Made by a program: the position numbers and the translations under genes. The notes below the pieces were generated by a model. The model did not search any database. It was given only the letters and a program-made list of their open reading frames with translations, and was not told where the DNA came from. From NCBI RefSeq assembly GCF_000203815.1, contig NW_004457695.1, positions 1,982,054-2,046,053 of the forward strand: a stretch of DNA of 64,000 nt, in the 5' to 3' direction. Below are positions 38,535-44,881 of this stretch, piece after piece (the first letter of the stretch is position 1; every line of letters starts with the position of its first letter). This DNA comes from Cavenderia fasciculata (taxonomy: Eukaryota; Evosea; Eumycetozoa; Acytosteliales; Cavenderiaceae).

Positions 38535-39809
38535 ATGGCTGAAGTCAAGAAGGGTTTACAATTGGAAGGCATCCGTATGTATATTATATATAAACCAACT
38601 GCGACATATCTAATATATATTAATTCCATACAATCCGATATACAACAACAATTGTTGGGAATTGTGTTTATATCGATCGGGGAATAAACATATCAGATGT
38701 AATTTAAACATATTCATATCTCTAACATTCCTATCCCCTCCCCTAATTACTTAATTACAATACTTCTTCTTGTAGAAACCAACCAACACAAGTCTGGTAC
38801 CTCTTTCACTGAAAAGTTGAGCGGTGAAGCTCTTGCTTTCTTCTGTGAGATCGCTGCCAAGCCATTCTCTGAACAAGCTGTTGCTTTCCTCAACGCTTAC
38901 TGGTTCGAAGTCCATGACCAAGCTGAATTCATCTACTCGTAAGTCTTTATATATATATGTTACTTATCCTATATCAGAGTTTTAGGTGGTTGGTAGTTAT
39001 AGTACTTGCCAACCAAAAAAAATCTGTTTTTTGGGGGTTCTGTCAGATTCATGTAAAAAAAACCGATTTTTTTTCTAACCCAACTTTTTTTTTTTTTTTT
39101 TTCCCATTTTAGAGTTGCATGGGATATTATCAAGTACGCTGATATGCATTGCAAGGGTATCCAACTCGTTTACAAGTATGATGAAGGTAACGATTTGGAC
39201 TTTGATATTGGTCTCTACTTTTATGAACAACTCTGCAAGTTCTGCGAAGACTCAAAGAACCAAGCCAAGTTTGGTGCTGAATACAACCGTTCCAAGCCAG
39301 AGATGTTGACTGCCCTCAAGCGTAAGCAAGAGCTCAGAGACAAGGTCGATGTCAACTTTGATGGTCGTGTCTCCTTTTTGGAGTTCCTCCTCTACCAATA
39401 CCGTGATGTAGCCAATCCAGCTGATTTCTGCTCACGTTCAATGGGTCACGACGAACATCCAGAGATCAAGAAGGCTCGTTTGGCTCTTGAAGAAGTCAAC
39501 AAGCGTATTCGTGCCTACGAAGAAGAAAAGGCCCGTCTCACCCAAGACGCTGCCGGTACTGGTGTCAAGGCCCTCGGTGCCAAGAACATGTTGGCCCAAA
39601 TCGAGTCATCCCCACTCAAGGAAGAACTCAACAAGGCCCTCATCACTGCCGAAGCTGCCGTCCGTATTGCTTGCAAGAAGTACGGAGGTGTCGCTTTCAA
39701 CGGTGCCGGTGGCAAGGGTGGTCAACACTCTTCCGAAGGTGCTCTCTGGTGGTTGAACCGTGATTTGACTGAAAAGAAGCTCCGTTACGGTCCATCAAAG
39801 GCCCAGTAA
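38535..39809 (+). CDS. abpB: Calcium-regulated actin-bundling protein ABP34 (30-kDa protein)
   Basis: Three exons (38535-38574, 38776-38938, 39113-39809) encode 299 residues, close to the D. discoideum protein (295). Recognised by long shared segments: TSFTEKLSGEALAFFCEIAA, VAFLNAYWFEVHDQAEFIYS, IIKYADMHCKGIQLVYKYDE, FYEQLCKFCED and LTALKRKQELRDKVDVNFDG. The EF-hand-like loop DVNFDGRVSFLE is kept, followed by the helical ARLALEEVNKRIRAYEEEKA. The protein cross-links actin filaments in filopodia and the cortex, and calcium inhibits bundling. Codon use is strongly biased to C-ending codons (AAG, CTC, GTC, CGT), as expected for a highly expressed gene. The first intron (201 nt) splits the codon after GI, and the second (174 nt) contains T/A homopolymers. 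The product is expected in the cytoplasm. Confidence 0.97.
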
Positions 39810-40065: not shown

Positions 40066-42920
40066 TTAGTTATTTTTTATTTTACTTGCAAGATTATTTT
40101 GATTTTGGAAATAAAAAAAGAAGAAAAGAATAAATAAATTTGAAATGAAATAAATCCAAGTGCAAAATATTTCCAAGACAAGTGATGGAAAGAATCTAAA
40201 TGTTGTTTCATGGATTATAAATAATAGGATGGTATAGAGATATGGCATACCAATCATATGTGTAATGATTGGTAGTGTATAGAAATACCAACATAGAAAT
40301 GGTGAATATAATCCTCTTGCAAAAATAATTGCAATAAAATTTGTAAATAATAATTTAAATATTCTTGACCTATTATTATTAGTGTTAATATTATTATTCC
40401 TACTATTCTTTAAAAAAAAGAATAAGATTGAAAAGATTAAAATAGATAATAAAAATAGATTAAAATAATTTGATTGATAAATGATACGACCAACAAATTT
40501 AAAGTTTCTTGTTTTTTCCCATAGTAGTGTTCTGGAAAAATCGTATGCCAAGGTTAGATAGCCAACCCAATTGGTTAGGAGGAATGGTAGTCCAATGAGT
40601 AATTGTATAAATCCCATCCAAATGATAAAGAGACTAGTCTTGACAAGACTGTATTGTTCTAGTAGGAGAACTAAAAGTGCTGGTGCAAAGAATACTGTGT
40701 GCAACTTTAGTGATACCACACAAGAATAGATTGTACAAAATATAAATAATTTATATTTCCCATTCTTAGAATTAGATATAAGTGCTAATAATCCAATATG
40801 AAGTAATAGTGTTGATGGGAAATCATTAATGACAACTCGTACATTATACAAATGTAATCGATTAGAGAGTACCGGTAAGAATGCTAAAATAGTTGGTAGT
40901 TGTAATCTAGTGCACAGTCTTTTAATGACTAAAAAATTGATAGTCTCCATCACTGTCCAAACTATTTGGTATCTTGATAATGACTGATTTGTAAGATAAT
41001 TGAAAAATGAATACAAATAGATAAATCCACTTGGGTATGTACAAGGTCCATGATAATGCATAAATTGATTATAATCAAAATTATATCCTTTACCATTATC
41101 ATTAAATTGTTTCAAATGATGAATATGAGCAGGCCAATCATTAACATAGGTTGGTTGATATTTGATTTCATAAATTGATAACATTAGAATCACCAATACA
41201 GATATATAAAATATAATCTCTTGAATTAAATGACGACGATGTGATGGAATGGGAATATGTGATATTACGAATCTCTCCAATTGAAATATTCTTGGTGTCA
41301 TTAAATATAGACATATTACAATTGAAATGGATAAAACAATCCACCACCAAGGTAACAAGATTAAACCATATCTTTCCAAACCAATTGTTTCTTCTTGGGT
41401 TGGAGGTGGTGGTAGATAATAACTAGATATTCTAGTCATTGAATCACATTCTGGTGCTGTCATTAATGACTCTCTAAAAAATAATAATCTATCATTATTT
41501 ACACTTGCAACAAAATAATAATATTTTAAATTAAATATTTCAATTGTTTGAATAGTTTGATTTAATTTAATTATACTATGATTTCTAAAAATAAATAAAT
41601 AAATTAATTAATAAATGAAAATAGTAATGGGATGTCATTGTGGATGTACATACTGGTATAGATTATTTGTAAAATTAAAACAATAAATATCATTATTATT
41701 AATAGTTGGGTATATAATAATTAATAATTTTGAATCAATTGATAATTTCATGGTTGCTCTTTTTGAATTGTCATGTTGATTGGAGGGAGGATTGATTAAT
41801 TGTAAAATATTAAAATCAATTTGATTCTTTTCAAATGATATGATTGTAATGTATAAATGGTTATTCATGACTGTTACTATTATTGGATGATTGCATTGAT
41901 TGGTTGAATATGATTGATAATGTTGATTGGTTGATAAATGTATAAATCGAGTATCAAATGATTCAGAGATTAAAACCTCTTTAACCATTTCTAATCGATG
42001 ATTAAATAGAGTGATTCTATCAGGTTGACAAATTAAAATGGATTGATGACCAATATTTACAATACCAATAATATTTGAATTAAATTCTTTTTTCTCCCAG
42101 ACCTTATTATTATTGATTTGTTGAAAATAAATATTATTGTCAATTGATAATATAATTGATTGATCTCTTGTCATTATTAAAGTTGGATTTATATTACTAT
42201 TACTATTTTTCTTTTCAAGATGAATAGTTGAATATCTTGTTAAAACAGAGTTTGGTAAATCTTGATTCATCCATATATCATTATAATTATCTTCTGGAAA
42301 TACAATATTAAATCTACTATGATTTGATACATTTTTGTTGTTGGTTTCTAGTTTAATATGTTGGTAAATATCCAATTGATAAAATGTTGGTGATTCCATC
42401 AATACAAGCAATTCTTTATGATTATCTGTCAATATACAATCAATGACATTGCTATTGTTGTTACCAAGATTCAAATCCAATGATCCATAATATAAATGAG
42501 TCCAACTTGGATAATGATTTGGATACATCAATATCCTATAAAATCTTGCAACATTATTTGAACAAGATACTATATACTCTAAATTATTTGATATCGATAT
42601 TGATGACAATGTCTGTGTATAGTAATCATTATCATCATTATCATCATTGTCACCAAGTCCAATATCAACTGATTTATTCCTTGTCACTATCAATAAAGAA
42701 GTTAACTTTAATTACTCGACACGATCAATATTCTTCATTCAGAATACATACATATCCATTCTTTGACAGGACTATAATCAATAGGTGACAATAGTTTATT
42801 AATTGATAAACCATTTACTTTTGAAGAATGGTCCAACCATTCTAATAGAATAAAAAAGATAAAGAGGAAGATATATTTATTGTAAGTAATCATGATTATC
42901 ATTAAAATTGAATCAATCAA
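40066..42920 (-). CDS. ALG3-type mannosyltransferase with N-terminal secreted propeller-like domain (apparent fusion)
   Basis: Three exons, 42920-42752, 42686-41654 and 41584-40066, encode 906 residues; both 65-69-nt introns have GTATGT donors and keep frame. Residues about 1-30 are a signal peptide or anchor (YIFLFIFFILLEW). About 50-450 are beta-rich, with blade-like units (SISNNLEYIVSCSNNVARFY, SILICQPDRITLFNHRLEM) ending in YYYFVASVNNDRLLFF. After a helix (GLILLPWWWIVLSISIVICL) comes a complete ALG3/Not56 domain: NDWPAHIHHLKQF, YHGPCTYPSGFIYLYSFFNY, SNRLHLYNVRVVINDFPSTL, VVSLKLHTVFFAPALLVLLL, GLPFLLTNWVGYL, LLFTNFIAIIFARGLYSPFL, CWYFYTLPI. ALG3 adds the first Dol-P-Man-derived alpha-1,3 mannose to Man5GlcNAc2-PP-dolichol in the ER lumen. 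If translation starts at the internal ATG 41463, ALG3 would be a separate product of 465 residues. Confidence 0.82.
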
Positions 42921-43452
42921 TCAATCATTCATTTCTTACCTACCTTTTATAATTAGTGGTTAAATGTAATCAATCATTTAACGTTTACGTCTACTTTCTA
43001 TTTTAAAAGTTATAGATCCTTTTACAAATATCATATGATTTTGAATTAATTAATTTGTGTGTTGTTGTTGTGATTGTTGTCTCTATCTGAAAATATTAAA
43101 TTACTTTGATCATCATGCAAGTCGGTGGATATTAGATAATCACTATAGTAGTGGTAGGAGTCATCAATCGTAATAGTGTATCTTAGTGGTTTCTTGTTTT
43201 AGAACATGTTGCAAAGAACCCTATAATTATTAATTTCTTTGGTAAAAATTTGAGAAAATCCTCAAAGATTCCTATTTTAACCTTCTTCCTAAGCTCATTT
43301 TCTAATTATTATTGTTATTATTATCTTTCACATTTATATATACTCTAACTAACTATCTATATGGATATCATTATTATTCATATTCCTATTACTATTAATA
43401 TAACCCATAATTATTTTTAATACATTATATATATATACAAAAACACCCAAAA
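42921..43452. other. Divergent promoter region (ALG3 fusion and RNA ligase)
   Basis: About 530 bp between genes transcribed outward. It contains ATT/TTA-rich DNA at 43300-43390, a TA run at 43428-43437, and the octamer-like AACCCATAA at about 43400-43408. No other gene seen. Confidence 0.5.
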
Positions 43453-44881
43453 ATGATAACCGATGTTAATATAACAAACCTTACAATCACAGAATCAACT
43501 CCAGATACAACCAATACTATCACTACTACTACGACAACAACATCTGGAGTAGTAACAACCGATACTTCTTCTTCTTCTTCTGTTTCAAACAAGGAGGAAA
43601 CAATCACTACAACAACTACTTCTTCTACTACTGAAGTTGATGGAGAAGACAATGAAGATTTATTAGAAGTATCTGATAGACAGTTGGCATATGTTCACAA
43701 GATCATTGACTTGGAACCTATTGTTGGTGCAGATGTTATTGAAATTGCTACTGTACTTGGGTGGCGTGTCATTGTCAAGAAGGGGTTATACAAGGTTGGT
43801 GATTTAGTCGTTTACGTTGAAATTGACTCTCTCCTTCCACCATGGAACTACTTTATCTCTGATCGACTTGATAAATGTAATTTTAAAATTAAAACTATTA
43901 AAATGCGTGGACAATTATCTCAAGGTAAACAAGATAAATAGATAAAGATATAATGTAATCATTCTAACATAGTTATTTGTTTTTAATTTAGGATATTGTA
44001 TTCCAATTAAAGAATTATTAAATCATCCACATAAACAATTAAAAGCTGTATATCATGAAGAAGAGAATATTGATAGTGGAGTAAAGGAGATTCACCGAGT
44101 TGATCGTGAAGAGACTGTATTAAAGATTGAGATTGGATCGAATGTGACCGAGTTTATTGGCATTAAAAAGATTCAGGATCATCATGGAGGTGGAGGTGGT
44201 GGCAACAACATCTTTAAGCGAATCAAGAGCAATGGGATGTCACCATTCCCCAGCTTTTTGGTAAAGTCTGATCAACCACGTATCCAAAACCTGCCACACT
44301 ACATGGAGACCTACGAAGACGTTGAATTCGAGGTGACCGAGAAACTCGAAGGATCAAGTATCACAGCCTACCACAACAACGGAAAGACTGGTATATGCTC
44401 TCGAAACTATGAACTCAAGCACACAACAGAGACGGCTGAATCTGAAATATTTACAACTCTTGTTGGACGACTGGATATTCTCAAACGTTTGGAAGAGGCC
44501 AAGATCAATGTCGCCCTGCAGGGTGAAATCATCGGACCAAAGATCCAAGGTAATATCTATGGTCTCCCCGAGACACAGTACAAGGTCTATGATATTTATT
44601 TGATTGATAGTAATAGATATGCCACACAACCAGAACGTGTCGATATCATGAACACGATCGGACTCAAATGGGACGACCACGGTGTTCCATTCCTCGGTGT
44701 CCACAAAATCGGTGGCAAGAAACTATCCGATATTTTAGATATGGCCAATGGATTCTCCCAACTCAAAGGTTCCAAACCAAAAGTATTACGTGAAGGTATT
44801 GTATTTAAATCAAATACTCTCAGACATGATAGAGTCATTCATTTTAAATCAATTTCAAATCAATATTTATTAAAAAAATAA
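43453..44881 (+). CDS. RNA ligase of the DRB0094 (DraRnl) type
   Basis: Two exons, 43453-43924 and 43992-44881, encode 453 residues. A Thr/Ser-rich N-terminal 75 residues is followed by an OB-like module typical of Deinococcus RNA ligase (IVGADVIEIATVLGWRVIVK, YKVGDLVVYVEIDSLLP). The nucleotidyltransferase domain has motif I EKLEGSS with the adenylated Lys at about 275, motif Ia/III elements (ICSRNYELK, YKVYDIYLID), motif IV EGIVFK and motif V VIHFKSISNQYL. Members use ATP to seal 3'-OH/5'-phosphate ends and prefer a 3'-OH RNA strand at nicks. All catalytic motifs are present, so it should be active. A His/Gly linker (HHGGGGGGNN) sits between the two modules. Role is probably RNA or mixed-strand repair (inference). 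Confidence 0.9.

Follow-up and report, generated by a model that had tools for sequence, protein, structure and literature searches.

A predicted WD40-type propeller fused to an ALG3-type mannosyltransferase domain in Cavenderia fasciculata and distant relatives

On the minus strand of a 64,000-nucleotide stretch of the Cavenderia fasciculata genome (contig NW_004457695.1, positions 1,982,054 to 2,046,053; hereafter the window, with coordinates counted from its first letter), the gene DFA_08406 appears to place a secreted propeller in front of an ALG3-type mannosyltransferase. Are these parts of a single protein, and if so, what might such a protein do? Inspection of the locus and its relatives confirms that the fusion is real. 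DFA_08406 encodes a 900-residue protein from three minus-strand exons (42902..42752, 42686..41654 and 41584..40066) spliced in frame, in which a signal peptide leads into a propeller predicted to be of the WD40 type, followed by an extra membrane helix and then a GT-C domain of the ALG3 type (GT58).

Exon 1 (42752..42902) carries the start codon, the signal peptide (beginning MIIMITYNKYIFLFIFFILL) and the beginning of the mature protein, and exon 2 (41654..42686) encodes the bulk of the propeller. Exon 3 (40066..41584) supplies the last propeller strands, a juxtamembrane motif (SSYYLPPPP), the extra helix (TM0; 41260..41346, approximately residues 475-503), the whole ALG3-type domain and the stop codon. 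Both introns follow the pattern GTATGT...AG, with 65 nt in intron 1 (42687..42751, GTATGT...GATAG) and 69 nt in intron 2 (41585..41653, GTATGT...TTTAG), the latter lying within the propeller-coding part. Other combinations of open exons exist at the locus, 104 of them with more than 700 codons, as do other open acceptor and donor pairs for intron 1; the chosen splice is preferred for its GTATGT donors and for its agreement with aligned relatives at both junctions. The fusion itself does not depend on splicing because exon 3 alone, stop-free over approximately 505 codons, runs from the closing strands of the propeller through the extra helix and all of the enzyme. The single gene in one reading frame proposed by the first-pass annotation is therefore upheld by this exon and by the same fusion in relatives.

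A Met codon at 41463 in exon 3, close to where the last blade ends, would suit an alternative in which two adjoining genes were joined by a wrong gene model. Against this stand the stop-free passage of exon 3 from propeller into enzyme, the 12 family records, all of which run from the end of the propeller or earlier into at least the beginning of the enzyme (a Trinity-named transcript and Anaeramoeba among them), and a search of the C. fasciculata genome for the propeller as a separate gene elsewhere, which returned only the fused copy. We regard a misjoined model as exceedingly improbable, and both chance joining and two genes were rejected on the strength of exon 3 and the relatives. Two separate mRNAs are likewise very unlikely given the same fusion in distant relatives, the Trinity-named P0008 among them.

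The 12 family proteins, each with at least part of the fusion, comprise six dictyostelids (C. fasciculata, Heterostelium album, Acytostelium subglobosum, Polysphondylium violaceum, Dictyostelium discoideum (P0005) and D. purpureum), the metamonad Anaeramoeba flamelloides (P0011) and five further records. A length-matched protein search provided nine of them, including P0001, which is the NCBI model of DFA_08406 itself; P0010 came from a profile search, and using the enzyme half of P0008 as query brought in P0011, the fragment P0012 and, outside the family, a canonical ALG3, P0013. The extension that was to be sought in other dictyostelid ALG3-type genes is thus present in five further dictyostelids. 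P0008 carries the record name of a Trinity transcript, which puts the fusion on an assembled mRNA in that organism. P0009 and P0012 are shortened records that still start in the last blade, and P0010 ends within the enzyme.

An extension profile built from the six named dictyostelids and P0010 matched the Anaeramoeba protein over residues 35-537 (E 2e-41), P0008 mainly in one stretch, residues 35-85 (E 3.7e-18), and P0007 (E 2.5e-5), while the best match among 500 shuffled extensions reached E 0.4. This test, as well as a tree of the propeller, excluded P0009 and P0012, from which most of the propeller is missing. Judged from sequence comparison, the fusion is old and conserved. Its true spread is probably wider than found, since each protein search scored approximately 8,000 candidates under length limits and the profile search, which gave three proteins, missed known members; propeller-less members shorter than approximately 460 residues lay outside the reach of the searches.

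The extension was next considered as a structure. For the window protein and a second family member, structure prediction gives a WD40-type propeller, which in the window protein covers approximately residues 47-436 (41461..42764, minus strand) and is split by both introns. The models (mean predicted local distance difference test, pLDDT, 65.7 and 69.3) were built from 10 and 12 sequences, and their fold lists are dominated by WD40-type propellers such as RbBP5, WDR5 and PREB at 6-12% identity. A viral fold search returned just propellers or other proteins without evident bearing. The WD40 repeat profile matched three of nine members at E <= 1 (best 0.00081), with no match in the window protein; that protein matched no Pfam family besides ALG3 at E <= 10, and an NCBIfam scan gave matches only at E 0.01 or above. 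The best-conserved stretch of the extension, MYPNHYPSWTHLYYG (42484..42528, minus strand), corresponds to MYPNxYPxWTHLYYG across relatives and is placed by alignments and predicted strands in an early blade, where it makes up a loop and a strand.

If the first loop of ALG3 lies in the lumen, the loop leading to its first helix would be cytosolic and the segment ahead of the extra helix again lumenal. Consistent with this arrangement, 10 of the 12 family records have a net positive charge in the presumed cytosolic loop and the other two are neutral there, and the segment ahead of the extra helix is net negative in all but one, the exception being Anaeramoeba (+5). A hydrophobic start is present in the window protein and clear in six of the 12 records (P0002, P0004, P0005, P0007, P0008 and P0010). 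Helix parity, charge and signal peptide together indicate that the propeller is probably lumenal. The signal peptide, the beta-rich, propeller-like domain and the additional membrane helix described in the first-pass annotation all survive this analysis, the second of them as a predicted WD40-type propeller. The public model P0001 differs in its first exon (window 42902-43299, minus strand), beginning MSLGRSDYLISTDLHDDQK and so omitting the signal peptide given by the ATG at 42902. Because that ATG yields a hydrophobic leader resembling those of half of the family records, the public N terminus of DFA_08406 is probably wrong.

The enzyme domain (residues 525-862; 40183..41196, minus strand) scores 162.5 bits with the Pfam ALG3 family PF05208 (cut-off 23.6) over nearly the whole profile (8-353 of 358), which bears out the earlier claim of a complete ALG3 domain. 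PF05208 is matched by all nine members of alignment A1 at E <= 1, and the predicted fold of the domain is the GT-C fold of ALG3. The same annotation had, however, read the gene as the ALG3 of this organism extended on the lumenal side, and this is not supported. A profile search of the genome identified a second PF05208 gene on another contig, encoding once spliced an ordinary ALG3 of 437 residues with the usual motifs and no propeller extension; at 900 residues the propeller protein departs from the short length of ALG3 orthologues. The ordinary copy (L001, G000:C20) reads TNIDW where the yeast chain 9s6r has TEIN and P0013 has TEID, and its chosen splice has a GTTTGT donor in the first intron.

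Alignment with three canonical ALG3 sequences (the ordinary C. fasciculata copy, the yeast 9s6r stretch and P0013) reveals what the propeller family has kept and what it has changed. All 12 family records carry NDWP in the first lumenal loop, opposite IDW and IDF in two of the canonical sequences; its Asp (codon 41137..41139, minus strand), part of the shared pattern [IN]D[WF], aligns with the conserved ALG3 Asp, the presumed catalytic base. At this position 9s6r has Asn (IN-Y), from which that chain is probably an engineered Asp-to-Asn trap. Also retained are the Arg of S-x-R, N-D, K-[LM]-[NH], the Arg of [SGK]R ahead of a changed motif, R-x-L, and W-Y near the C terminus; invariant columns were judged without P0004 and P0010, the former being gapped at the conserved N-D and K. 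P0004 (P. violaceum CYY_009094) lacks INDFPST...SLK, present in other members covering that part, and this is probably a gene-model error. Five canonical motifs are replaced in the propeller family: [WYF][KEV][AT]Y by WP[AC]H, TGP by HG[PDH], [VS]LRLFND by VR[VI][VL]xND, F[ML][YF][QK]W[ST][IV]NW by LLW[ED]K[ST][RK], and [AS]RSLHYQF by [AS]R[GA]LY[TS]PF. Relative to the three canonical sequences, the signatures [AS]RSLHYQF and W[ST][IV]NW are thus absent from the family, and SNRLH and RTLLW[ED]K occur in all 11 family rows covering those positions.

A tree of the enzyme domain, from which P0010 was excluded because it ends inside the enzyme, places a 100/100 branch between the 11 family rows and the three canonical ALG3, so the propeller proteins do not group with canonical ALG3. 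Inside the family the tree leaves most branches open, with several long rows, and the trees, with their long branches, fit either descent or transfer for the copy in Anaeramoeba. By motifs and tree, the propeller protein is a paralogue of ordinary ALG3 in a separate, well-supported group. Table 1 of Lombard 2016 (PMC4973528) assigns two Alg3 to D. discoideum and two to P. pallidum, and of the two places where that article uses the word 'fusion', one concerns Alg13/14; ALG3 paralogy has probably been tabulated already. Among titles and abstract openings, in a search that left most subscription journals outside its scope, we found no report of a propeller-ALG3 fusion.

Does the paralogue repeat the reaction of ALG3? 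As an isoenzyme it would perform the same alpha-1,3 addition to Man5GlcNAc2-PP-dolichol, with the propeller serving only to regulate it or to dock it to endoplasmic reticulum machinery, a reading not far from that of the first-pass annotation. The strong family and fold match across the whole domain and the retained presumed catalytic Asp are compatible with this, yet the genome also carries an ordinary ALG3, the ALG3 signature motifs are replaced, and the two proteins fall on opposite sides of the 100/100 branch. Furthermore, D. discoideum makes the standard Glc3Man9GlcNAc2 precursor (PMC11795075; PMC3188802 section 23), which needs no second enzyme. We therefore consider an isoenzyme unlikely. 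The suggestion that the propeller senses lipid-linked glycan is, for its part, less likely than the handling of another acceptor, because an ordinary ALG3 is present and the propeller proteins are distinct in group and motifs.

Nor does the paralogue appear to fill a missing mannose step, an option rejected because ALG3, PIGM-type, PIGV-type and Glyco_transf_22 genes are all present among the families searched in C. fasciculata, the last at no fewer than four places not assigned to enzymes. ALG6/8 and DPY19 gave no match in this genome, but no control genome matched either. PMT (PF02366) was not found in the genome by a search that matched seven of 14 control genomes and that exon-split genes can escape, and the window protein has no PF02366 match at E <= 10.

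With no gap found among the searched mannose families, a changed acceptor and a presenting propeller form the most economical reading, which we judge marginally probable as a whole: an active mannosyltransferase dependent on dolichyl-phosphate-mannose (Dol-P-Man), whose lumenal propeller captures an acceptor other than Man5GlcNAc2-PP-dolichol. Its activity, donor and acceptor, and the task of the propeller, are what we infer. The paralogue split from ordinary ALG3 before dictyostelids diversified. It would be an ALG3-type GT-C core in a secretory-pathway membrane with the WD40-type propeller tethered in front of it, on the lumenal side, by the extra helix. Mannose would be taken from Dol-P-Man, with the conserved Asp acting as base, and passed to the other acceptor, for which a protein or a glycan bound to one is the likeliest candidate and which the propeller may recruit or position over the active site.

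A non-catalytic alternative treats the protein as a former glycosyltransferase turned sensor or scaffold, its membrane core binding a dolichol-linked lipid and its propeller a partner. WD40-type propellers mostly serve binding, and the altered motifs would fit such a change. Against this, the presumed catalytic Asp persists in 12 of 12 very divergent members, and SNRLH and RTLLW[ED]K persist in every row covering them; this retention suggests that catalysis is under selection, and we hold a sensor or scaffold to be doubtful.

Several points weigh against an active enzyme with a changed acceptor. The change of acceptor is read from motif swaps, and with three canonical sequences for comparison, one of them (9s6r) probably engineered, the contrast in some motifs may be overstated. 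In the tree the terminal branches are long, two of the 11 inner branches are starred, and the rows differ in composition. Confidence in the structure models is moderate at the pLDDT values and sequence numbers given above. Anaeramoeba P0011 lacks a signal-peptide-like start (0.81) and, with its net +5 before the extra helix, runs contrary to the topology argument in that organism. Finally, the precursor data come from D. discoideum and not from C. fasciculata.

The uncommon architecture of an ALG3-type enzyme with a whole propeller in front, kept across distant eukaryotes beside an ordinary ALG3, points to an unassigned step of mannosylation along the secretory pathway. It also illustrates how evolution might turn an enzyme that builds lipid-linked glycans towards a different acceptor. 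D. discoideum, which carries the gene, is a tractable organism in which to study it. A more speculative proposal, and an improbable one in our estimation, is that these proteins form a new mannosyltransferase class acting on proteins (or on protein glycans), in which an ALG3-type core would receive its acceptor from a lumenal WD40-type propeller. Such a class would be common to Amoebozoa and Anaeramoeba by age or by passage between them, and in dictyostelids, with PMTs not found in the one genome searched, would cover part of PMT-like roles.

As for its surroundings, DFA_08406 is flanked by a divergently transcribed gene with an RNA ligase domain (window 43973-44878, plus strand; PF09414, E 2.9e-23) and by a convergent gene with an F-actin bundling C-terminal domain (window 39057-39806, plus strand; PF18060, E 3.2e-21).

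The protein has in common with ALG3 (Dol-P-Man:Man5GlcNAc2-PP-Dol alpha-1,3-mannosyltransferase, GT58, PF05208; yeast 9s6r) the Pfam family, the GT-C fold and the presumed catalytic Asp, and differs from it by the N-terminal propeller, signal peptide, extra helix, altered motifs and separate clade. Most WD40 proteins are cytosolic or nuclear; in contrast to propellers such as RbBP5, WDR5 and PREB, this one apparently resides in the secretory pathway and is fused to a membrane enzyme. GT-C mannosyltransferases that act on proteins and have lumenal domains include PMT with its MIR domain, TMTC and TMEM260. The likeness to these enzymes is one of working plan only, a GT-C membrane core joined to a soluble lumenal domain, where the propeller takes the place of MIR or TPR; there is no PMT family match, PMT (PF02366) being the only one of the three compared by search.
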